DNA of 64,000 nt, from contig NZ_CP082286.1 in assembly GCF_019880245.1 (NCBI RefSeq), positions 1,506,521 to 1,570,520 on the forward strand, given 5' to 3'. The notes beneath the pieces were generated by a model. The model did no database searches. It worked only from the letters and a program-made list of their open reading frames with translations, and was not told the origin of the DNA. The DNA is from Halobaculum roseum (GTDB lineage Archaea > Halobacteriota > Halobacteria > Halobacteriales > Haloferacaceae). The translations under genes were made by a program, and so were the position numbers. Positions 15,293 to 30,766 of the stretch are shown here, piece by piece (within the stretch, counting starts at the first letter, position 1; every line of letters starts with the position of its first letter).

Positions 15293-17638
15293 TCACGTCG
15301 GCTTGCCGGCACCGCCCAAGCGCCGGAGGACCGGGGCGTGGCGGCGGACCAGGTCGTCGGCCGCCTCGACGGCCCGCCGGGCCTCCGCCTCGTCGACGCC
15401 GCCCCCGTAGCGGGCGCGCTCGTACGCCTCCGCGACGGTGCGGGCGGACTCGCCGAACCGGTCGCGAGAGAGCGCCCCGACGTACTGCCGGGGCGTCTCG
15501 CCCGGGCGACGCGGTCGGTAGACGACCGACGCGAGGTACTCCAGGCGCCGGAACGCCCGCTCGGCGTCCGTGTCGGGGTCGGCGCTGGACTGGTGGAGCA
15601 GCCAGACCGTCCGTCGGACCCGCCCCGTCAGGCCGAGGCGGCGCGCGCCGGCGACGACGCCGACCAGCGCGGCGGCGCCGACGACGACGTCCTCGCGGGT
15701 GGGCGTCCATCCCTCGTCGCCGTCGCCGCCGCCGGATCCGCCGCCGGCGGGCGTCGCGTTCGCGGTGAGGCCGCCGGGGCCGGCGGTGGCGACCGTCGCG
15801 TTGCCGAACTGGTCGATGCCGGGGTCGACCGCCTCGGCGCCGGGGTCCGAGTTGGCGGGAGTGGAGCCGGCGTCGGGTGTCGCGGTCGGCGTCTCGTAGC
15901 TCCCGTCCTCCGAGCCCGCGGCGTCGACGTTCTCGGTTCCCTCCTCGCGGGCGGACTCGACGCTCGCCTGTTCGGCGGTCTCGCGCGGGCCCGACGGGGT
16001 GGGGTCGAACCGGACCCAGCCGTGGCCGGGGAAGTACACCTCGACCCACGCGTGGGAGTCGAGGCCCCGGACGACCCACTCGTCCTCGGCGACGCGCTGG
16101 CCGGACGTGTAGCCGGTGACGAACCGGGCCGGGACGCCCTGGGTTCGCAACATCGCGACCATCGTCGTCGCGTAGTAGACGCAGTAGCCCGCGTCCATCT
16201 CGAACAGGAAGCTGTCGGCGGTGTTGCCCTGCGGGGGCGGCACGTCCAGCGAGTACTCCTTCGTCCGTTCGAGGTACCGCTCGACGGCGACGGCCGCCTC
16301 GTAGGGGTTCGACGCGTCCGCCCGGTCGATCACCTCGGCGGTGCGCTCGCCGACGCGATCGGGCGTGCTCTCGGGCAACTGCGTGTACCGCGAGGAGACC
16401 GACGACGGGTAGTCCGTCCCGGCGCGGCGGAGTTCCCCGGCGGTCGCGTTCGGGCGCTGGCTGACGACGGTGTAGGTGTCGTTCTCCAGCAGCGTCGTCC
16501 CGGGCTTGAGCCCGCCGTGGTCGGTCACCTGCGCGGTGTCTGCCGCGCGGCCGCGGAGTTCGACGGGCTTCCACGCCGCCGGCAGCGCGTCCATCTGCCC
16601 GCGCGCGGTCACCCGCTGGGTGAGGCGGTCGCTCTCGCCGGCCGGCTCGCCGAGCGATCCGGATCCGGAGTAGGGACTCGTCTCGCCCGTTCTGACCCAC
16701 CTTCCGCCCGTGTAGCGGTCGTACGAGCCGACGCGCCAGTAGGCGGGCTCGTCGGCCTCGACGGTGAAGCGGACCTCGGGCGAGAGGCGGATGCTCCCGA
16801 GCACGCCGACGGAGTCGGTGTTCGCCACCAAGCTCGACTCGACGGTCGGGGAGTCGCCGCCGGGGAGCACGGGGTTCGTCGCGCTCCCGGGGACGACGGT
16901 GACGACGGAGGTGACGACGACCATCGCGGCGACGACGACCGCGAGCGTGTCCCACTGGGCGAGCACGCCCGAGCGCCCGGCGGCGGCCAGCTCGGAGAAG
17001 CCGATCGCGAGCGTGACCCCGACCGCGGCCGCGAGGGCGACGCCGACGCCGGCGTCGCCGGTGAGGACGAAGAAGCCGGTCGTGGCCGCGCCGACCGTCG
17101 CGGCCGCCGGGTAGCGCCGGCGGACGAGGAAGTACGTCGAGAGGAACGTCGGCACGGGGACGAGAAACAGCGCCCACGCGCCGGCGTTGAGCAGCCGCAG
17201 CACCGACAGCCCCGTGAGCAGCGCGAGCACGTCGCCGGCGACGCGCCCGGCGGTGAACAGCGCGCGCGCCGACGGCGGCACCGACATGAAGTAGCCGACC
17301 AGCGCGAGCGCGAAGCCGACGGCGGCGAGGCCGACGGCGGTCCGCTCGCGGAGGAAGCCCCCGAGCCACGCGGCCGCCGCCGCGACGACCGCCACCTCCA
17401 TCAGGAGGAACGTCGCGCCCCCGACCACGTCGACGACGTGGTGGAACACCGCGAGAAAGGACGCGACCGCGAGGGCGACGCCGGCAGCCGCCGGAGTTCG
17501 GACCGCCGCGGCGACCGAGTAACGGCCGGCGGCGTCCCCGTCGTCGCCTCCGGAACCCCCGCCGCGGTCGGCGGAGCCGTCGCCGGCGGTCCGTCCGGAT
17601 CCCATCCCGCCGAACCGGTTTCCGACGGGCGTGCTCAC
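15293..17638 (-). CDS. membrane transglutaminase-like protein (TgpA-like)
   Basis: 781 residues. Several transmembrane helices occupy about 30-245. An extracellular transglutaminase-like domain follows with catalytic Cys in 'DAGYCVYYATTM' (about 485), His in 'DSHAWVEVYFPGHGW' (about 529) and Asp in 'VRFDPTPSG' (about 543). A disordered linker, one more transmembrane helix near 650 and a cytoplasmic helical tail follow. Its start overlaps the DUF58 stop by 4 bp. With MoxR and DUF58 upstream this is the widespread MoxR-DUF58-transglutaminase module, thought to act in cell-envelope protein maturation. Activity (crosslinking or proteolysis) is not decided by sequence. Confidence 0.88.
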   Translation of the reverse strand: MSTPVGNRFGGMGSGRTAGDGSADRGGGSGGDDGDAAGRYSVAAAVRTPAAAGVALAVASFLAVFHHVVDVVGGATFLLMEVAVVAAAAAWLGGFLRERTAVGLAAVGFALALVGYFMSVPPSARALFTAGRVAGDVLALLTGLSVLRLLNAGAWALFLVPVPTFLSTYFLVRRRYPAAATVGAATTGFFVLTGDAGVGVALAAAVGVTLAIGFSELAAAGRSGVLAQWDTLAVVVAAMVVVTSVVTVVPGSATNPVLPGGDSPTVESSLVANTDSVGVLGSIRLSPEVRFTVEADEPAYWRVGSYDRYTGGRWVRTGETSPYSGSGSLGEPAGESDRLTQRVTARGQMDALPAAWKPVELRGRAADTAQVTDHGGLKPGTTLLENDTYTVVSQRPNATAGELRRAGTDYPSSVSSRYTQLPESTPDRVGERTAEVIDRADASNPYEAAVAVERYLERTKEYSLDVPPPQGNTADSFLFEMDAGYCVYYATTMVAMLRTQGVPARFVTGYTSGQRVAEDEWVVRGLDSHAWVEVYFPGHGWVRFDPTPSGPRETAEQASVESAREEGTENVDAAGSEDGSYETPTATPDAGSTPANSDPGAEAVDPGIDQFGNATVATAGPGGLTANATPAGGGSGGGDGDEGWTPTREDVVVGAAALVGVVAGARRLGLTGRVRRTVWLLHQSSADPDTDAERAFRRLEYLASVVYRPRRPGETPRQYVGALSRDRFGESARTVAEAYERARYGGGVDEAEARRAVEAADDLVRRHAPVLRRLGGAGKPT

Positions 17639-18729
17639 GCGATCACCTCCCCGTCGCCGGCGGCCTCGCGACTCCCTCGGGCGCGATCGAGGCGCGGGTC
17701 GGGGCGCGAGACGCCGTACGTCGCGGGCCGGTCCGAGCGGAAGTCGGCGAACTCGTGGTCCTCGCCGGCGACGGAGACGCGGACGCCGTCGGCCTCGCCG
17801 TAGACGGTGACGTCCGCGTCGGCGTCGGCGACGCGTCCGGGTCCGATCACCGCCAGCCGCTCCAGCAGGCGCACCTGGCTGCCGCGCTCGCCGGTGACGG
17901 TGAGCGTTCCGTCGGGGAGGGACACGTCGACCGGGACGCCGTCCTCGACGAGTGCGAGCGCGATGCTCGCGGTCGCCTCGGCCATGCCGTCGGCGGCGCC
18001 GGGCGCCGCGGCCGCGCCGGCGGCGACCGAGACCGCCTCCGTCTCCGCCTCCGCGGAGAACTCCTTGACGATGAGGTCGTCGCGCTTGGCGGTCGACTTC
18101 CAGTGCACGTCGCGCAGCGAGTCGCCGCGGTCGTACTCGCGGAGGCGGTCGAACTCGCGGCGCTCCTCGTGGACGCCCGTCTCGTGGAGCGCGCGCAGGT
18201 CGCGGCGCGCCCAGCCGGCGATGGCGTGGACCGCGGGGTAGACGAGCACCTCGCTCGTCTCCGTCGTCGAGAGGTCGGTCTCCGCGAGCCCGAGCGCGTC
18301 GCGGGCGGTCACGCCGGCCGGGCCGAGGCGGTGGCGTCCGCGCGACTCGTAGGTAACGTCGTACTCGACGGGGACGGCGCCGACGACCGTCTCGAAGACG
18401 ACCCGGTCGGCGTCGACGCCGTCGCCGACCCGCTCGCGGACGCGGCCGGCGAACGGGCGGTCCATTCCCTCGTCGGCGCTCGGGCGGGGGCCGTCGCGGT
18501 CGCCGAAGAACAGCCGGACCGGATACGTCCGGCCGACGTGGTCGTCCGGCGGCACGTCGCGCGCGACCGCCGGGGGCTCGACCCAGCGTAGCTGAAGGTA
18601 GGCGGCGCTCAACGCGACGATCGCGGGCACGACGACGGCGTTGAGCGATCGCGGGCCGAACGCGAGCCCGGAGGCGACCGCGACGACCGCGACGGCGACG
18701 ACCGCCTTCCCGCGTCGGGTGAGCCGCAT
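17635..18729 (-). CDS. DUF58 membrane protein
   Basis: 364 residues. Two N-terminal transmembrane segments (about 8-26 and 29-47) precede a beta-rich region, then the signature 'REYDRGDSLRDVHWKSTAKRD' at about 197-217 and a degenerate von Willebrand A-like region. DUF58 proteins are usually substrates or partners of MoxR AAA ATPases. It is the middle gene of an operon: the MoxR stop lies 2 bp upstream and its own stop overlaps the transglutaminase start. Confidence 0.9.
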   Translation of the reverse strand: MRLTRRGKAVVAVAVVAVASGLAFGPRSLNAVVVPAIVALSAAYLQLRWVEPPAVARDVPPDDHVGRTYPVRLFFGDRDGPRPSADEGMDRPFAGRVRERVGDGVDADRVVFETVVGAVPVEYDVTYESRGRHRLGPAGVTARDALGLAETDLSTTETSEVLVYPAVHAIAGWARRDLRALHETGVHEERREFDRLREYDRGDSLRDVHWKSTAKRDDLIVKEFSAEAETEAVSVAAGAAAAPGAADGMAEATASIALALVEDGVPVDVSLPDGTLTVTGERGSQVRLLERLAVIGPGRVADADADVTVYGEADGVRVSVAGEDHEFADFRSDRPATYGVSRPDPRLDRARGSREAAGDGEVIA

Positions 18730-18731
18730 CG

Positions 18732-19730
18732 CTACTCGACGGGCACCGACGAGAGGGCGTCCTCGACCACGTCGAGGCCGGACTCGCTGCCGGTCCGGGG
18801 ACGGACGCGGTGGGCGAACACCGACGGCGCCTCCGTCTGCACGTCGTCGGGGACGACGTAGTCGCGGCCGTCGATGACGGCGCGCGCCTGCGAGGCGCGC
18901 ACGAGGGCGATGCTTCCGCGGGGACTCACGCCGAGCTGGGCGTGATCGCGGGTGTAGGTGGCGAGGTCGGTGACGTACTCGCGGACGGGTTCCGAGACGC
19001 CGACCTCGCCGACGGTGGCGCGGGCGCGGCGAAGCTCCTCGGTGGTCGCTACCGGCTCCAGCGACTCGATCGGGTGCTCGCCGGCCGTGCGGTCCAGCAT
19101 CTCCGTCTCGTCGGCCCGGTCCGGGTAGCCGAGCCGGAGCTTCTTCATGAACCGGTCGATCTCCGCAAGCGGGAGCTCGTAGGTGCGCCCGGGCTCGACG
19201 TCGTTCTGGGTCGCGATGACGGTGAAGGGGTCGGGGAGCTCGCGGGTGACGCCGTCGACGGTGACCTGCCCCTCCTCCATCGCCTCCAGCAGCGCCGACT
19301 GCGTCTTCGGCGGCGCGCGGTTGATCTCGTCGCCGAGGACGATGTTCGCGAACACCGGCCCCGGGCGGAACTCGAACTCGCCGGTCTTCTGGTTGTACAC
19401 GTTGATTCCGGTCACGTCCGACGGGAGGAGGTCGGGCGTGAACTGGACGCGCTTGAACTCGCAGTCGACCGAGGTCGCAAGCGAGCGCGCGAGCATCGTC
19501 TTGCCGACGCCGGGCACGTCCTCGAGGAGGAGGTGGCCCCGGCCGAGCACGGTCACGAGGATGTGCTCGACGGCGGCGTCGTTGCCGACGATGACGCGGG
19601 CGACGTTGTCGGCGACGCGGTCGACGAGGTCGGCCGCCTCCGATACCGGAAGCGGCGCGAGGTCGTGGGGGGTCCCCTCCGGGTCCGCGCCGTCGCGGTC
19701 GGTCTCGGGCTCGGCCTCCGCGTCGCTCAC
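18732..19730 (-). CDS. MoxR-family AAA ATPase
   Basis: 332 residues from GTG 19730, chosen over the longer frame (to 19796) because a TATA-like GTGTATTC lies 20-27 nt upstream and the earlier residues are unlike the family. Walker A reads 'EDVPGVGKT', Walker B 'VLGDEINRAPPKTQSALLE', and sensor 1 'VIATQND'. This is a chaperone-like ATPase that remodels partner complexes. It is first in an operon with DUF58 and transglutaminase genes, which are likely its clients. Confidence 0.92.
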   Translation of the reverse strand: MSDAEAEPETDRDGADPEGTPHDLAPLPVSEAADLVDRVADNVARVIVGNDAAVEHILVTVLGRGHLLLEDVPGVGKTMLARSLATSVDCEFKRVQFTPDLLPSDVTGINVYNQKTGEFEFRPGPVFANIVLGDEINRAPPKTQSALLEAMEEGQVTVDGVTRELPDPFTVIATQNDVEPGRTYELPLAEIDRFMKKLRLGYPDRADETEMLDRTAGEHPIESLEPVATTEELRRARATVGEVGVSEPVREYVTDLATYTRDHAQLGVSPRGSIALVRASQARAVIDGRDYVVPDDVQTEAPSVFAHRVRPRTGSESGLDVVEDALSSVPVE

Positions 19731-20068
19731 GCGTCGTACACCCCGGCGGGAGAATACACCCGGATGCGGGCTGTCTGGGTGTCGTTCACAGACCACGTCA
19801 AGGGCCGAACGGACCTAACTCTGCCGCATGCGGACGTACGTCATACCGAACCGTCACGGCGTCGCCGCCGTACCGTTCCGGGGGTCTATCGAGCCGTCCG
19901 GATCCGAACTGAGGGGCGACGAGCCGATCGAACGGAACACGAGCCGTGCGGAACGAGCCCGATCGCTTCGGGTGGAACCCGGCCGCCGACCGTCCGGACC
20001 GCGGTCGGTCGACTGAGAAAGGATTAGGTAGGTCCGATTTCGAGAGATAGCCGATTCGGGTGCGAGAC
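19731..20068. other. divergent intergenic region, promoters only
   Basis: About 340 bp separates the MoxR operon from the methyltransferase-like gene. I see a TATA-like element for moxR (near 19750-19758, minus strand) and GGATTAGGTA near 20021-20030 for the rightward gene. Short open frames here lack conserved character. Nothing else is recognised. Confidence 0.6.
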
Positions 20069-22312
20069 ATGTCAGGTGCCCCACGCGGTTCGTACGGACA
20101 GGGCTTCGTTGAGCGCGTCGTCGAGGCGGCCGACCGGGCCGAGGCGACGCTCGGCGCCGACGCCGGCGCCGAGACCGTCGCGGCGACGCTGTGTGCGGCG
20201 CTGTTCGGCGACGTGCTGGGGTACGACCCCGACGCGTACGATCTGGACGGTCGCGTCGGGCGGCTCCGCGACGACGACGGCGCCGTGAGCGCGACGTTCG
20301 CGGCGGTCGGACGCGACGCCGAGAACGTGGGCGCCGCGGTGGTCGCGGCGTTCGAGGCCGCCAGCGCCGAGCCGACGGCCCGATACGTCGTCGCGGGGGG
20401 GTTCGACCGGCTGCTCGTCTTCGAGCGCGTCGACCGCGAGGGAGCCGAGAAGGGAGGGGACGGCGGAAGCGCCGGGGACATCGAGAACGCCGAGGACGGC
20501 GAGAGCACAGAGGAGGTCCGGACCGTCGCGGGCGTCTCCGCGGTCACCCACACCGCGATCCCGCTGGCGCGGATCGTCGACGCCGGGCGCCAGGGGCGGC
20601 TCTCGCAGACGCTCCGGCCGGCCCAACAGCTCGCCGTCGCGAAGCTGACCGCGTTGCGGCCGGCGGAGCTGTCCGCGGTCGACGACGCGGGGGATGTCGA
20701 CGACGCCGACGGCGTCGGTACGTCCGGGCGCCACGCCGTCGCCGACGACGACGGGCTCGACACGCTCGTCGGGACGCTGCGCGACTGCCTCGGCGACCTG
20801 CTCGCGCCGGCCGTCGAGTCGGCACAGGCGCGGCTCGTCGACGACCTCGACGGGTACGACGAGCGCGCGGCCGACCTCCGGGACGCGGTCCGCGCCGCCC
20901 GCCGCGGCGACGGCGACGAGACCGCCGCCGGGCCGGCACGCGCGCGACTGCTCGCCCACGAGCGCGACCACGCCGACGCGCGGGCGCTGCGTGCCGCCTA
21001 CGGCACGTGGGTCCGCGGCGCCGGCCGGACGGGATTCACGCCCTCGGAGAACCGCCGGGCGTTCGCCCGCGTCGTCGCCTTCCAGCTCGTCGAGGAGGCG
21101 CTGCTGGAGCGGGTGTTCGCGGGGATGGACCTCCTCGACGAGGCGCTCACCGGCGACGCACTCGAGCGGTTCGGGGAGTTCGCCGAGGGGATGGGCGTCG
21201 AGCGCGACGCGGGCGACCTGCTCGGGCTGGCCCGCGAGCGCCGCGCGGACGCCTACGACCGGCGTGCGCCGGACTTGGCCGGCTGGGCGCTCGACGACGA
21301 CGGGGTCACGGCGGCGATCTCGCGGACGGTCGGGTACCTCGATCACTTCTCGTTCGAGGGCGACCCCGACCGCGCGGTCGCCGCCTACGACCGCCTGCTT
21401 TCTGTCGCGGGCCTGCATGGGATCGAGACGGACCCCGCCGCTCCGGACCCGCTTCCCGAGGCCCTGCTCGATGCGGCCGGCTACGACGCCTCGACGGACG
21501 CGGGCCTGCACGGGATCGAGGGCGACCTCCTCGACCCCGCCGTCGGCGACGGGCGGTACCTGCTCGCGGCCGCGGAGCGGCTCCGTTCGGGATTCGCGGA
21601 CGCCGAGCCGGCCGACCGACTGCGGACCCTCGGCGAGCGGCTGACGGGCGCGAGCCCGGACCCGCTGGCGTGTCGCGTGACCGAGACGCGGCTGTTGCTG
21701 CGGCTGCTCGGCGACTACCGCGAGGCGCGGTGGGAGGACCCGACGTTCACGCTCGACTCCCTCCCGGTATACTGCACGAACCCCCTGATCCGAGACGGCC
21801 ACGAGCCGGCCGCCCTGGCCCGGGAGGACTACGACTACGTGGTCGGCGCGCCGCCGGCGACGCTGCGGCGCGACGTGGCCGACGGCCCGGTCGCCGACGC
21901 GTACGCCGACTACGACGCGGCGTACTACACCTACGACACCTCCGCGCTGTACGTCGAGCGCGCGAGCGACTGGCTCGCCGAGAACGGGACGCTCGCGCTC
22001 CGGGTCGCCGGCCGGTTCCGCGACACGCGGTTCGGGGAGAAGCTCCGCGAACGCATCCCGCAGTGGTACCGGCTGGAGGCGCTTCGGGAGGTCCCGGGCG
22101 AGGCGGCCGGCGGCACCCCGGTCCTGCTGGTCGCGCGGCGCTTCCGGAGGAACGAGTCCTTCGTCGACCCCGACGAGTACGAGCCGCCGACGTACGGCTT
22201 CACCTACGCCGAGGGGCTCGCCGACGGGGGCGTGCGGCGCTCGTCGGCCCGGCTGACCGCCGAGCACTGGGAGTGGGACGCCGACGGCGACGACGACGAG
22301 ATCGGGATCTGA
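20069..22312 (+). CDS. N6-adenine methyltransferase-like protein with degenerate catalytic motif
   Basis: 747 residues from ATG 20069 (a GTG at 20060 is in frame). The order of parts recalls type IIG/Eco57I-like methylases: an N-terminal domain with a degenerate nuclease-like region, helical middle, then motif I as 'DPAVGDGRYLL' (about 489) and motif IV as 'DYDYVVGAPPA' (about 588). Active N6-adenine methylases need (N/D)PP(Y/F/W); here the Asn and aromatic residues are replaced. So it may bind DNA or S-adenosylmethionine without methylating. It precedes mutS by 70 bp on the same strand. No restriction or specificity subunit is nearby. Confidence 0.6.
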   Translation: MSGAPRGSYGQGFVERVVEAADRAEATLGADAGAETVAATLCAALFGDVLGYDPDAYDLDGRVGRLRDDDGAVSATFAAVGRDAENVGAAVVAAFEAASAEPTARYVVAGGFDRLLVFERVDREGAEKGGDGGSAGDIENAEDGESTEEVRTVAGVSAVTHTAIPLARIVDAGRQGRLSQTLRPAQQLAVAKLTALRPAELSAVDDAGDVDDADGVGTSGRHAVADDDGLDTLVGTLRDCLGDLLAPAVESAQARLVDDLDGYDERAADLRDAVRAARRGDGDETAAGPARARLLAHERDHADARALRAAYGTWVRGAGRTGFTPSENRRAFARVVAFQLVEEALLERVFAGMDLLDEALTGDALERFGEFAEGMGVERDAGDLLGLARERRADAYDRRAPDLAGWALDDDGVTAAISRTVGYLDHFSFEGDPDRAVAAYDRLLSVAGLHGIETDPAAPDPLPEALLDAAGYDASTDAGLHGIEGDLLDPAVGDGRYLLAAAERLRSGFADAEPADRLRTLGERLTGASPDPLACRVTETRLLLRLLGDYREARWEDPTFTLDSLPVYCTNPLIRDGHEPAALAREDYDYVVGAPPATLRRDVADGPVADAYADYDAAYYTYDTSALYVERASDWLAENGTLALRVAGRFRDTRFGEKLRERIPQWYRLEALREVPGEAAGGTPVLLVARRFRRNESFVDPDEYEPPTYGFTYAEGLADGGVRRSSARLTAEHWEWDADGDDDEIGI

Positions 22313-22382
22313 TCGGCGGCGCGCTCGGCGAGGCGGTGCGAAACCCTTTCGCCGCTCGCCCGCCCGCTGGCAACCAACGACT

Positions 22383-25087
<2,705 letters not shown>

Positions 25088-25091
<4 letters not shown>

Positions 25092-26776
25092 GCGAGGAGT
25101 CGTCCGGCACAGCGGTCCGCGAACTGTCCGAGGACACCGTCGAGCGCATCGCCGCGGGCGAGGTGATCACCCGGCCCGCCCGCGTCGTCGCCGAGCTGGT
25201 GGAGAACGCGCTCGACGCCGGCGCCGACCGGATCGAGGTGGCCGTCGACGGCGACGGCACCGACCGGATCCGCGTCGCCGACGACGGCCGCGGGATGGGC
25301 CGCGAGGACGCCGCCCGCGCGGTCGAGCCGCACACGACGAGCAAGATCCGTGCGGCCGACGACCTCCGAACGGCGACTACGATGGGCTTTCGCGGGGAGG
25401 CGCTGGCGGCGATCGCCGACGCCGGCGACCTCGAACTCGTGACGAGCGACGGCGCCGCGGTCGGAACGCGGGTGACCGTCGCGGACGGCGAGAAGACCGT
25501 CGAGGACGCCGGGCGCGGGCGCGGCACCACGGCCGTCGTGACGGACCTGTTCGGCGACCGGCCCGCCCGCCGGGAGTCGCTGGCGTCGCCCGCGCGGGAG
25601 TTCGGCCGGATCTCCGAGCTGCTCACGGCGTACGGGCTCGCCCGGCCCGAGGTGGCGTTCTCGCTCGAACACGACGGCCGCGAGACGGCGTCGACGCCGG
25701 GCACCGGGCTCCGGGACGCGCTCGTCGCGCTGTACGGCCGGGAGACCGGCGGCGAGTCGACGGCGGTCACCCACCGCGCCGGCGTCGATCTGGCAGACCG
25801 GTCGGCCGACCTCGCGGTCGAGGGGCGGCTCTGCTATCCGTCGACGACCAGGTCGACCCGGGAACACGTCCACGTCGCCGTGAACGGCCGGCCCGTCCGC
25901 GACGACGACCTCCGGCGGGCCGTCGCGCGCGGGTACGGGAACCTGCTTCCCGGCGGACGGGAGCCGGTCGCCGTCGTCCGCCTCGACCTACCGGCGTGGG
26001 CGGTCGACCCGAACGTCCACCCCGCGAAGGAGCGCGTCGCGATCCGCGGGGGCGACGCCGTCGCCGACGCGGTCGAGGCCGGGGTTCGGGAGGCGCTGAC
26101 GACCGCCGACCTCCGCAGGTCCGGCGAGGTGGCGATGGATCTCGACTCCTCGCTTTCGCCCGCGGAGGCGACGGAGTCGGACTTCGCCGACGCGACCGTG
26201 CTCGGCGTCTTCCGTGACCTGTACGTCGTCTGCGAGTCGGGCGACGACCTGCTCGTGGTCGACCAGCACGCCGCCCACGAGCGCGTCAACTTCGAGCGCC
26301 TGCGGGAGGCCCTCGCGGACGAGGCGGTGCCGTCGGCCGAGTTGGACCCCGCGGAGACGGTGACGCTGGATCCGCCGACCGCGGCGGCCGTGGAGGAGCA
26401 CCGCGAGGCGCTCGCGGCGCTCGGCTTCTCAGTCGACCCGTTCGGCGGGACGACCTACCGAGTCACGGCGGTGCCGGCGCCGCTGGGACGCGTCGCCGAC
26501 GCGGACTCGCTGCGGGGGGTCGCGACTGACCTCCGGGAGTCGGGCGGCCGCGGGGGCGACGCCGCGGCGGCCCTGCGGGAGGGTCTGCTCGCGGACCTCG
26601 CCTGTCACCCGTCGCTGAAGGCGGGCGACGCGCTCGACCGCGAGACGGCGGGTCGGCTGGTCGAGCGACTCGGCGAGTGCGAGCAGCCGTACGCCTGTCC
26701 GCACGGCCGGCCGACGGTGCTGTCGGTCGGGGCGTCGACGCTGGCGGACGGGTTCGAGCGCCACGGCTCGCGGTGA
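25088..26776 (+). CDS. mutL: DNA mismatch repair protein MutL, endonuclease type
   Basis: 562 residues. The N-terminal GHKL ATPase has 'AELVENALDAGA' (catalytic E36, Mg-binding N40), 'DDGRGM' and 'GFRGEAL'. The C-terminal domain keeps the nicking-endonuclease metal motif 'DQHAAHERVNFE' (about 391-402) along with 'ACHPSLKAGD' and 'CPHGRP'. It should therefore nick the discontinuous strand itself, as expected in organisms without MutH. GTG start at 25088 overlaps the mutS stop by 4 bp. Confidence 0.95.
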
Positions 26777-26797: not shown

Positions 26798-27073
26798 TCA
26801 CCACTCCTTGCAGTCGCCGCAGACGTAGTCGCCGTCGTCGCGCCAGCGACGGGTTACCGACTCGCCGCAGGCGTCGCAGGCGGCGCCGTCGGGCGAGTAG
26901 TCGTACGTCGGGGTCGCGGGGTCGACGGTGTCTACTGCCTCCGCGTCCGCGCCGGCGTCGGTGTCGGCCTCCGCGTCCGCGTTCGTGTCGGCGTCCGCGT
27001 CCAGCTCGGCGCCGGCGAACTCCTCCAGCGATCGGTCTTCGGGCACGGTCGAACCGAGCGCCGCCCGGGGCAT
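26798..27073 (-). CDS. small acidic zinc-ribbon protein (DUF7573-like)
   Basis: 91 residues from ATG 27073. A GTG at 27046 would start at 'PEDRSLEEFAG', which I think is the more family-like N-terminus. The C-terminus is a zinc ribbon with CxxC pairs 'CDACG' and 'CGDC' and ends 'CKEW'. Between them is an Ala/Asp/Glu-rich spacer. The DUF number is from memory and unverified. It converges on mutL and is divergent from the small membrane protein gene. Confidence 0.7.
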   Translation of the reverse strand: MPRAALGSTVPEDRSLEEFAGAELDADADTNADAEADTDAGADAEAVDTVDPATPTYDYSPDGAACDACGESVTRRWRDDGDYVCGDCKEW

Positions 27074-27167
27074 AACTCCGGCGCGAGGCGGTCGCGACCC
27101 CACGGCCCATGCTCGCGCCGTCGCCGACACATCAACGCTCAAGTCCCCGCGGGTCCGAGCGCCGAGC

Positions 27168-27413
27168 ATGGTAACCGTCATCGACTTCCTCACGCGGCTG
27201 GTCACCAGCGTCGTCGACCTGATCGTCATCTTCGTGACGGACGTGGCGCTTCGGGACCCGCTGTCGTTCGTCTCGTTCCTGTTCGGCGCCGCGTTCGTCG
27301 GCGGCGCGTCGCTGGTGATGGGCTATCTCGCGCTCGGCGCGCTGGGGTACGAGTTCGGCATCGGCAACCTCGCGGCGAAGAGCCAGCGCGAACGCGCCCG
27401 CGGCCAGCGCTGA
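27168..27413 (+). CDS. small two-helix membrane protein
   Basis: 81 residues from ATG 27168. Hydrophobic segments at about 5-27 and 35-58 are separated by a short polar turn, and a basic C-terminus ('KSQRERARGQR') suggests a cytoplasmic tail. No motif that I recognise. It shares a roughly 95-bp divergent spacer with the zinc-ribbon gene. Confidence 0.65.
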   Translation: MVTVIDFLTRLVTSVVDLIVIFVTDVALRDPLSFVSFLFGAAFVGGASLVMGYLALGALGYEFGIGNLAAKSQRERARGQR

Positions 27414-27454: not shown

Positions 27455-28492
27455 CTACTCCGTCGCACGAGCGGCCGCCTCGGCCGCCAGCTCGATCGCC
27501 GCGTCGAGATCCGGTCCCAGCGGCGAGCCGATGACCAGCGAGTCGGCGTGCTCCAGCACCGCGGCCATGCGCTCGGCGACCGCGTCGGCGTCGCCGGCCA
27601 TGCAGAAGGCGTCGACCATCGCGGGCGTGACTAACTCGAACGCCTCCGAAAAGTCGCCGGCGGAGATCCGGTCGCCGATGTCACCCGCCAGGTCGGCGTC
27701 GAGCCCGTGGCGGTCCAGCACCGGCGGGGCGGCGCCGGCGGCGATGAACGCGACCGGGGGGCGGGCGGCCTCCCGGGCGGCCTCGGCGTCCTCGGCGACG
27801 CTGACGGCGGCGTAGGCCGCGAGGTCGAAGTCGCCGCGGGAGTCGGGGCGGTCGGCCGTGCCTTGCTCGACCTGGCCTCTGGCCCACGCGAGGTCGTCGG
27901 GGTGCGAGCCGTTGAACAGCAGGCCGTCGGCGTGCTTCCCCGCCATCCTGCACATGTGGGGCCCCTCGCCGCCGACGTACACCGGGATGTCGGCGCCCTG
28001 CGGGGGCCGGTAGTTTAGCCCCGCGTCGGCGGCGTCGAAGGTCGAGGCGCCGTCGACGCGCTCGCCGGCCCACAGCTTCTGTGCGGTCTTGAACGCCTCC
28101 AGCACCGGCCGGAGGCCCCGCTCGTCGCCGAGGCCGAGGTTGCGGAGGGTGGAGGGGTCGCCGGGGCCGACGCCGAAGACGGCGCGGCCGCCGCTGGCCT
28201 CGTCCAGCGTCGCCACCTTCGAGGCGAGCGTCGCGGGGTGGAACTCCAGCGGGTTGACGACGCCGGGGCCGAGCCGGGCGGTGTCGGTCGCAGCGGCCAA
28301 CTGCGAGAGCACGGAGAAGGCGTCGCGGTTGTTGTAGTGGTGGGAGACGAACAGCGAGTCGAATCCGGCGTCCTCGGCGAGCGTCCCGAGTTCGACCATC
28401 CGGTCGACTGAGTGTTCTGGCGCGAGTTCGATGCCGAGCATCGGCGGGGCGGCGTCCGTCGACTCGTCGCCGGCGTCGATCGGGCTATCCAT
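27455..28492 (-). CDS. mer: F420-dependent 5,10-methylenetetrahydromethanopterin reductase-like (LLM family)
   Basis: 345-residue TIM-barrel oxidoreductase of the bacterial luciferase-like superfamily. 'LFVSHHYNNRDAFSVLSQLAAATDTARLG' and 'GVVNPLEFHPA' follow the Mer pattern, as does the non-prolyl cis-peptide region. It transfers hydride between F420H2 and a C1-folate-type carrier; haloarchaea use a folate-like carrier rather than methanogenesis. It overlaps cofE by 8 bp, and cofE makes the F420 tail, so the pair couples cofactor maturation with its use. Exact substrate is inferred. Confidence 0.85.
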   Translation of the reverse strand: MDSPIDAGDESTDAAPPMLGIELAPEHSVDRMVELGTLAEDAGFDSLFVSHHYNNRDAFSVLSQLAAATDTARLGPGVVNPLEFHPATLASKVATLDEASGGRAVFGVGPGDPSTLRNLGLGDERGLRPVLEAFKTAQKLWAGERVDGASTFDAADAGLNYRPPQGADIPVYVGGEGPHMCRMAGKHADGLLFNGSHPDDLAWARGQVEQGTADRPDSRGDFDLAAYAAVSVAEDAEAAREAARPPVAFIAAGAAPPVLDRHGLDADLAGDIGDRISAGDFSEAFELVTPAMVDAFCMAGDADAVAERMAAVLEHADSLVIGSPLGPDLDAAIELAAEAAARATE

Positions 28493-29240
28493 CGAACTCC
28501 CACCCCCGAACCGCCTGGCGGATCAGGTCGCCGTCAACGTCCCGGAAGTGCGCGTCGCTCTCCGCGTGGTCCCCCCACTCGAAACCGCGGACGACGACGA
28601 CCGGGGTTCCGTCGTCGCCCTCGCCGGCGACGAGGTTGGCGGCCGCCGCGAGTTCGTCGGCGACGTTCTCGACGGTCACCCCGAGTTCGCGGCCGTCGCG
28701 GTCCGACTCGCCGCGCCAGTCGCGGGCCGGCGCCATCCCGGCCCAGCCGACGGCGACGCCGCGCTGGCCGTGACGGAACGGCCGCCCGCAGGTATCGGTG
28801 ACGAGCACGCGGTCGGCGGGCAGTCCCTCACGGATGCGCTCGGCCGAGTCGGAGGGACGCTCCGGCAACAGGAGGAGGTCGCCCTCGGGGACGTTCGAGC
28901 GGTCGATGCCGGCGTTGACGCCGACGTGGCCGAACCGGCTCTCGGTGAGCAGGAACGGCGCCTCCATGATCACCTCCGTCGACTCCTCCAGGACGGCCTG
29001 TGCGAATCGGGGGTCCTTCTCGTCGCCCGAGATCTCCGAGAGGCGGTCGGCGATCTCCCGCGCTCGCGGGCCGGCAGGGAAGTCGTCGAGGTCGAACGCG
29101 CGGCCCTCGGCCTTCGAGACGACCGTCGAGGCGACGCAGACCACGTCGTCGGGACGGAGGTCGACCCGGTCGCGGACGAGCGCCGCGAGGTCGTCCCCCT
29201 CCCGGATCTCGGGGAGCTCGGGGACGGCGAACAGTTCCAT
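28485..29240 (-). CDS. cofE: coenzyme F420-0:L-glutamate ligase
   Basis: 251 residues from ATG 29240; upstream in-frame codons are not family-like. CofE adds glutamates to F420-0 using GTP. Typical segments are 'VPELPEIREGDDLAALV' at the N-terminus, 'VVSKAEGR', 'VGVNAGIDRSNVPEGDLLLLP' and 'VTDTCGRPFRHGQRGVAVGWAG'. Length fits archaeal CofE. Operon with mer, which starts inside its last codons. Confidence 0.93.
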   Translation of the reverse strand: MELFAVPELPEIREGDDLAALVRDRVDLRPDDVVCVASTVVSKAEGRAFDLDDFPAGPRAREIADRLSEISGDEKDPRFAQAVLEESTEVIMEAPFLLTESRFGHVGVNAGIDRSNVPEGDLLLLPERPSDSAERIREGLPADRVLVTDTCGRPFRHGQRGVAVGWAGMAPARDWRGESDRDGRELGVTVENVADELAAAANLVAGEGDDGTPVVVVRGFEWGDHAESDAHFRDVDGDLIRQAVRGWEFDG

Positions 29241-29389
29241 ACCCGCCCTGCGGTCGTCGCCCGCAAAAGCGCGCCGGTGGTGGTACTCGTATCCGGTGTT
29301 CGCGTCCACACCGCCGCGGCGACCCGGTCGCGACCGCCGTTCGGGCCGCCGTCGGTACCTCGAAGTCGCCGGCGCGTCCAGTGTGGCAC

Positions 29390-30766
29390 ATGGCACACGT
29401 CGTCACCGCCTTCCTCCGCGACCGCGGCGAGGTGCTCCTCGTCCGCCGGGGCGACGCCGTCGGCACCTACTCGGGGCGCTGGGGCGGCGTCTCGGGGTAC
29501 GTCGAGGACGAGACCGACGACCCGGTCGACGACGCGCTCCGGGAGATCCGAGAGGAAACCGGCATCGGCAAGACGGACCTGACGCTCGTCCGCCGCGGCG
29601 ACACGGTCGCCGTCCACGACGCCGAGGGGGCGTTCACCGTCCACCCGTTCCTGTTCGACTGCGACACGCGGGCCGTGGAGCCGAACGAGGAGCTGGCCGC
29701 GACCGAGTGGGTCCAGCCGCCGGCGATGCTGGAGCGGGAGACGGTGCCGCGGCTGTGGGACGCTTACCGCGCCGTCGGCCCGACCGCCGAGACCGTGGCC
29801 GCCGACCGAACGCACGGCTCCGCGTCCGTCTCGGTCCGCGCGCTGGAGGCGCTTCGCGACGAGGCCGCCGACGCGACGCTCGCGGGCCACCCGTGGGAGT
29901 CGGTCGCCGACGCCGCCCGCGCCCTGCGGGACGCCCGGCCGGGAATGACCGCGCTCGCGACGCGAGTGAACCGCGTGATGAGCGAGGCCGACCGAAGGGA
30001 GGCCTCGACACGAACGGGGAACACAGTGACCCGTGAGGGGAACGAGGCCGATCGGACGCCGGCGGCGGTCCGGGACCGGGCGGTCGCCGCCGTCGCCGAC
30101 GCGGTCGCGGCCGACGACCTGGCGGCACGGGAGACGGCCGCGGTGCTGGCCGACCACGGGGACGGCGACGACGGCGGGTCGCCGGCGCTGCTCACGCTGT
30201 CGCGCTCGGGCACCGTCGCCGAGGTGCTGTCCGACGCCGACGGCCCGGTGTTCGTCGCCGAGTCCGAGCCGGGCGGCGAGGGACGCGAGGTGGCCGCGTC
30301 GCTGGCGGCCGGCGACGACGAGCCGGCGACCGACGACCGCGCGGTGACGCTCCTCCCGGATTCGGCGGTCGCGTCGCTGCTCGCCGACGGCCGCGTCGAC
30401 GCCGCGCTCGTCGGCGCCGACGCGGTGTTCCCGGACGGCGGCGTCGCCAACAAGGTCGGCACCCGCGGGCTGGCGCTGGCGGCCGCCCGCGAGGGCGTGC
30501 CGGTGTACGCGGCGACCGCGCGCGACAAGGTGGTCCCCGCCGGGGCGGCGTTCCACCCGGAGGAGGCACCCTTCGAGGCGGCCGAAGGCGTGGAGACGTA
30601 CGCGCCGCTGTTCGACCGCGCGCCGGCCGACTGCGTGACCGTCGTGACCGAGGACGGCCCGCTCGACCCCGAGACGGTGCGTGCGATGGCCGAGGAACAC
30701 CGCGCGCTGGCGGCGTGGGACCGCGACGGCGACGCGGACCGCGGCGACGACGATGGGAAGGAGTGA
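29390..30766 (+). CDS. Nudix hydrolase fused to an eIF2B/MtnA-like domain
   Basis: 458 residues from ATG 29390; GTG 29381 is also in frame. Residues 1-130 are a Nudix fold. The box 'GYVEDETDDPVDDALREIREETG' begins near 36 and has Asp where the first conserved Glu is usual, plus one extra residue. Residues 160-440 are an eIF2B alpha/ribose-1,5-bisphosphate isomerase-like domain with 'GADAVFPDGGVANKVGTRG' near 342-360. The isomerases' catalytic Cys (in a THC-type motif) is absent: 'LTLSRSGTV' is found instead. A nucleotide-sugar or AMP-salvage link is plausible; the reaction is unknown. Confidence 0.78.
   Translation: MAHVVTAFLRDRGEVLLVRRGDAVGTYSGRWGGVSGYVEDETDDPVDDALREIREETGIGKTDLTLVRRGDTVAVHDAEGAFTVHPFLFDCDTRAVEPNEELAATEWVQPPAMLERETVPRLWDAYRAVGPTAETVAADRTHGSASVSVRALEALRDEAADATLAGHPWESVADAARALRDARPGMTALATRVNRVMSEADRREASTRTGNTVTREGNEADRTPAAVRDRAVAAVADAVAADDLAARETAAVLADHGDGDDGGSPALLTLSRSGTVAEVLSDADGPVFVAESEPGGEGREVAASLAAGDDEPATDDRAVTLLPDSAVASLLADGRVDAALVGADAVFPDGGVANKVGTRGLALAAAREGVPVYAATARDKVVPAGAAFHPEEAPFEAAEGVETYAPLFDRAPADCVTVVTEDGPLDPETVRAMAEEHRALAAWDRDGDADRGDDDGKE

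Follow-up and report, generated by a model that had tools for sequence, protein, structure and literature searches.

The closest known system to the gene analysed here is the solitary type IIG or Eco57I-type 'N-6 DNA methylase' of haloarchaea, represented by WP_083687846.1 from a plasmid of Natronorubrum daqingense (loci L059-L066 and L106). On the Natronorubrum plasmid the long form is annotated as solitary and lies near an integrase; it is an ordinary type IIG-like enzyme. Long forms of this kind measure about 1,200 residues where complete and combine an N-terminal nuclease-like domain, a helical connector and a methylase domain. They carry a D...ExK signature in the HSDR_N-like N-terminus, GEFYTP as motif X, a GLDxNP-type motif II and NPPY as motif IV. 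In the three long forms scanned, Eco57I and TaqI_C domains are present and matches to HSDR_N are weak; the long-form profile matches BseCI and CamA-type structures. In a survey of haloarchaeal restriction-modification genes (PMC6471742), the terms Eco57I, NPPY, truncated and pseudogene are all missing from the main text.

The window studied is a stretch of 64,000 nucleotides of the Halobaculum roseum genome (contig NZ_CP082286.1, positions 1,506,521 to 1,570,520), containing a gene for a short form of these enzymes. Nearly the whole window protein is homologous to the long form, of which it has lost D...ExK, GEFYTP, GLDxNP, NPPY and TaqI_C (the latter as found in the long forms scanned). With PglX (BrxX) of BREX systems it shares the Eco57I-class methylase core and a weak NCBIfam match; however, the score is 21.5 bits against a cut-off of 400 bits and the catalytic motif is absent. 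No BREX genes are found among the immediate neighbours, which encode MoxR, DUF58, transglutaminase, MutS and MutL. Score and neighbours rule out an identity as PglX. METTL14-type pseudo-methyltransferases have retained the methylase fold after losing the (D/N)PP(Y/W) chemistry, and METTL14 is the defined partner of METTL3 on RNA. The window protein may be likened to METTL14 in this respect, but METTL14 differs in having a defined partner. The gene and its neighbours are the following.

15293-17638, reverse strand: TgpA-like transglutaminase with DUF4129
17635-18729, reverse strand: DUF58 protein
18732-19796, reverse strand: MoxR-type AAA ATPase, divergent from the gene and found next to it in each of the four genera that have the short form
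20069-22312, forward strand: Eco57I-like methylase relic, short form, 747 residues, a putatively dead type IIG enzyme (open reading frame, Pfam, PADLOC and hhalign)
22383-25091, forward strand: mutS
25088-26776, forward strand: mutL, named from its sequence and its conserved place after mutS

The open reading frame spans 20060-22312 on the forward strand without internal stops, and its start codon is most likely the ATG at 20069. The sole Pfam match of the protein is to Eco57I, with an E-value of 2.1e-5 and a score of 25.1 bits, below the gathering score of 25.3 bits. Residues 464-673 match the PADLOC models of type II methyltransferases (E 1.1e-12). The HMM-HMM comparison proposed with the original prediction, run with hhalign between the short-form profile and the long, NPPY-containing type IIG-like forms, aligned 753 columns with a probability of 100% and an E-value of 7e-89; the homology between short and long forms is thus not due to chance and is secure despite the sub-threshold Pfam score. 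Searching the PDB with the window protein as a single query gave no matches, and searching it with a profile gave weak matches only, to type I M-subunits and to BseCI. An AlphaFold model, calculated from an alignment of three close sequences, has a mean pLDDT of 39.6 and is too poor to use. The same gene is present in loci of H. gomorrense and H. saliterrae, with 79% and 74% identity, respectively.

Motifs were compared between 14 short forms, the window protein included, from four genera of one family, and 10 long forms. In the window, alignment places them as follows.

20246-20317, forward strand: region of the former PD-(D/E)xK nuclease motif, residues 60-83 (aligned with the 10 long forms)
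21524-21565, forward strand: motif I, DLLDPAVGDGRYLL, residues 486-499, retained
21641-21673, forward strand: motif II region, LTGASPDPLAC, residues 525-535, the acid of GLDLNP lost
21767-21790, forward strand: motif III region, VYCTNPLI, residues 567-574
21830-21868, forward strand: motif IV region, YDYVVGAPPATLR in place of NPPY, residues 588-600

The original prediction described a putative catalytically dead methylase with a recognisable motif I and GAPPA at the position of motif IV. Both motif readings are correct: in the 747-residue protein, motif I is DPAVGDGR and motif IV reads YVVGAPPATLR. NPPY is present in all ten long forms and in none of the 14 short ones. The broader (N/D/S)PP(Y/F/W)-type motif IV is likewise absent from all 14, its place being taken by GAPPA, GSPPA, GAPPT, GAFPA, GRFPA, GRFPT, SDPPN, SDAPT or TDAPT. 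A mutation of NPPY local to the window is ruled out by this absence, and since NPPY is not conserved in close homologues, the predicted deadness stands. The D...ExK of the nuclease, found in all ten long forms (for example as NDVRFFDEDRNPVVIVEGK) and in no short form, reads DGRVGRLRDDDGAVSATFAAVGRD in the window protein, with ExK replaced by AAVG and similar sequences among the short forms. Motif X is absent from the short forms, and the window protein ends about 60 residues past the methylase region, before TaqI_C, so that it has no specificity domain. With motif IV lost in all orthologues and the nuclease ExK lost as well, deadness is better supported than first stated, two active sites, rather than one, being predicted to be dead.

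Motif I is kept in every short form, with GDG replacing GSG, and its D, P, A, G, D and G are invariant across 12 aligned short forms. GDG is also found in BseCI; the motif I loop of the short forms may thus still bind SAM, although this is doubtful because motif X is gone and the acid of motif II has been lost in Halobaculum and in genus g6 (it is kept in genera g8 and g17). Among the short forms, the aspartate of motif III is changed to asparagine only in the window protein and in G146, its closest relative. The loop before motif I contains a duplication of GLHGIE, encoded by a near-exact 19-bp direct repeat, GGGCCTGCAyGGGATCGAG, at 21409-21427 and 21502-21520; G146 likewise has the motif in duplicate, as LHGID twice.

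The search for relatives covered 292 and 391 genomes of the class, 170 of the family and 11 of the genus. It yielded short forms, of around 730-840 residues, in just four genera, all from one family: Halobaculum, g6 (3), g8 (5) and g17 (1), absence elsewhere referring to the sampled genomes searched with the short-form profile at E-value thresholds of 1e-25 to 1e-40. Among the 11 Halobaculum genomes, the gene is intact in seven, frameshifted in one (G293) and missing from three. The frameshift is not counted as decay because nearby genes are also split in this less complete assembly. G139 and G184 lack the gene, while G292 keeps a relic (L045, 6098-6235) in which N-terminal codons 33-72 or so, about 40 in all, are joined to the last codons, apparently via GAC-rich repeats of the GACGACGACGGCG type. 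The absence from G139 and G184, together with this two-ended relic, indicates that the gene is dispensable.

In an unrooted tree of 25 rows, every short form is separated from every long form by a branch with 100/100 support. The short forms cluster by genus and are divided into Halobaculum, g6 and g17 versus g8. It is likely, but not proven by an unrooted tree with long branches, that the short forms derive from one decay event. No relative was found in viral contigs and no short form on plasmids, and mobile or viral carriage of the short form was rejected on these grounds.

The gene is divergent from the MoxR-DUF58-transglutaminase genes in all four genera. As noted in the original prediction, it lies 70 bp upstream of mutSL on the same strand, the mutS ATG being at 22383. 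This adjacency is conserved within the genus, in eight of the 11 Halobaculum genomes (one of them the frameshifted G293), and is absent outside it. In g6, the downstream neighbour is an inverted mutSL in G328, threonine synthase (named from sequence, here and below) in G327 and another gene in G026; in g8 it is threonine synthase, and in G174 neither of the two is found. Threonine synthase was considered as a shared downstream partner outside Halobaculum and rejected: present in g8 and G327, it is missing behind the gene in G026, G328 and G174 and is thus not a constant partner.

Many other genera of the family have mutS directly next to MoxR in divergent orientation. The starts of mutS and the transglutaminase gene are then only about 2.2-2.5 kb apart, a distance that leaves nothing sizeable inserted; in G022 this gene order was seen directly. 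The MoxR-mutS gap (19797-20068 in the window; L087, L093, L094) is a recurrent insertion slot, holding different, unrelated genes in different genera. In G121 these are, as named from their sequences, a CPBP-type protease and an HTH protein, and in G321 DedA-like, 2,3-diphosphoglycerate synthetase-like and carbamate kinase-like genes. Gaps that are empty or differently filled mark the space between the two core operons as a variable slot.

Alignment of upstream regions revealed two elements.

20017-20030, forward strand: promoter-like element, GAAAGGATTAGGTA
22336-22365, forward strand: mutS upstream element, GTGCGAAACCCTTTCGCCGCTCGCCCGCCC

The former precedes the ATG by about 40 bp and can be recognised in each of the five other aligned Halobaculum species that carry the gene. 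The core of the latter is conserved in all Halobaculum aligned, whether the gene is present or not: TGCGAAACCCTTTCGCC... is also kept upstream of mutS in the gene-less G292, G139 and G184, and the core is found in G121 and G328. As the element is present without the gene, mutS is probably independent of the gene for its promoter. The mutS element is very strongly conserved over its length and is longer than a usual promoter core.

Within Halobaculum, dN/dS (Nei-Gojobori) is 0.29-0.45 for the gene, compared with 0.22-0.31 for MutS, 0.10-0.26 for MutL, 0.05-0.25 for MoxR and 0.18-0.33 for the transglutaminase. The number of nonsynonymous changes falls far short of the neutral expectation from 4-fold sites of the same locus (P 1e-14 to 1e-53), a test that uses rates from a GC-rich genome and gives a sign of constraint, not an exact figure. 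The deficit reaches P 1e-14 even in the closest pair, and the frame is intact in other lineages at dS of up to 0.65. Substitution patterns thus indicate that the gene is under purifying selection, and with its catalytic residues evidently lost and its protein sequence constrained, it shows the pattern expected of a pseudoenzyme. The protein is probably produced and under constraint; purifying selection and the conserved promoter-like element suggest that it still does something. That dN/dS is somewhat above that of the core neighbours, and that three of the 11 Halobaculum genomes are without the gene, suggests that this function may be weak or fading.

We consider it likely (roughly 70%) that the gene encodes a vertically inherited, dispensable, dead type IIG pseudoenzyme, which would act, if at all, as a non-catalytic binding scaffold. 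The ancestor would have been a solitary haloarchaeal type IIG enzyme with a PD-ExK nuclease, a helical connector, an Eco57I-class N6-adenine methylase and a TaqI-like specificity domain. Judging from the alignment, the short-form lineage would have lost the nuclease residues, NPPY and the entire specificity domain; synteny and the tree suggest that the gene, located in the intergenic space 5' of the divergent MoxR-DUF58-transglutaminase operon, was then inherited vertically within four genera and lost several times. Because of the missing residues and domain, cutting, methylation and specific site reading by the parental mechanism should no longer be possible. What remains would most likely be a scaffold made of the methylase fold and the motif I loop, engaged in protein or non-specific nucleic-acid contacts. 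That a type IIG enzyme had decayed and been retained in a different role was one of the options in the original prediction, and the loss of nuclease, motif IV and specificity domain under purifying selection favours it.

The other option put forward there, an accessory factor working with MutS and MutL in strand or damage recognition, was suggested by the position upstream of mutS in eight of the 11 Halobaculum genomes. However, in g6, g8 and g17 mutS lies at another site or in the opposite orientation, whereas MoxR-DUF58-transglutaminase stays alongside in all four genera; mutS has its own upstream element in species with and without the gene, the same gap holds unrelated genes in other genera, and the gene-less Halobaculum species retain mutSL. 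The reading is further weakened by the dispensability of mutS and mutL for the genomic mutation rate of Halobacterium salinarum (PMC2816208). Synteny and the independent mutS element led us to reject the link, which appears extremely improbable: that the gene borders mutS is a local coincidence of gene arrangement, with no sign of a mismatch-repair role and no demonstrated link of the pseudoenzyme to MutS or MutL. Just as hard to credit is an active methylase with an unusual motif IV. Motif I is kept, and BseCI, the structure of which was solved as that of a modification methylase, also has GDG, but free drift among nine variants at motif IV, the missing motif X and the want of a specificity domain in the window protein all speak against activity.

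The protein might also assist active methylases or restriction enzymes without catalysis of its own, either as a METTL14-like subunit or as a decoy modulating full-length enzymes in the same cells. Related Eco57I-type genes with intact NPPY do occur in some of the same genomes, such as G088 and G146, but co-occurrence is inconsistent (G063, G109, G223 and G294 have no other relative at the threshold used) and there is no genetic linkage, making this reading improbable. Somewhat more weight, though still unlikely, can be given to a relic in slow erosion that no longer has any function, an old type IIG gene in which stops have yet to appear. The three Halobaculum genomes without the gene, one of which keeps about 40 N-terminal codons and the C-terminus, and the progressively worn motifs agree with erosion; intact frames at dS up to 0.65, dN/dS of 0.29-0.45, the nonsynonymous deficit in the closest pair and the conserved promoter-like element argue against it. 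Returning to the preferred pseudoenzyme, a more specific and rather doubtful version is that several haloarchaeal genera put it to use as a regulator or scaffold without catalysis, working with a new partner; candidates would be the products of the divergent MoxR-DUF58-transglutaminase genes, next to which its gene is always located.

Restriction-modification genes that have decayed would as a rule be expected to disappear. In this case, one that is apparently dead at both active sites is kept in frame in four genera under selection, offering a clean case for asking what the scaffold of a restriction enzyme can be reused for. The locus also cautions against inferring function from adjacency, as only one genus shows the striking mutS neighbourhood.

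Further along the window, the small conserved genes at 26798-27229 (reverse) and 26928-27413 (forward) overlap; they encode a DUF7573 protein and a small protein, and the assumed start of one of them is probably too far upstream. A CofE-like gene at 28485-29396 (reverse) has a dN of 0.078 and a dS of 0.242 between the window and G146, unusually high beside its neighbours, as if it had recombined.
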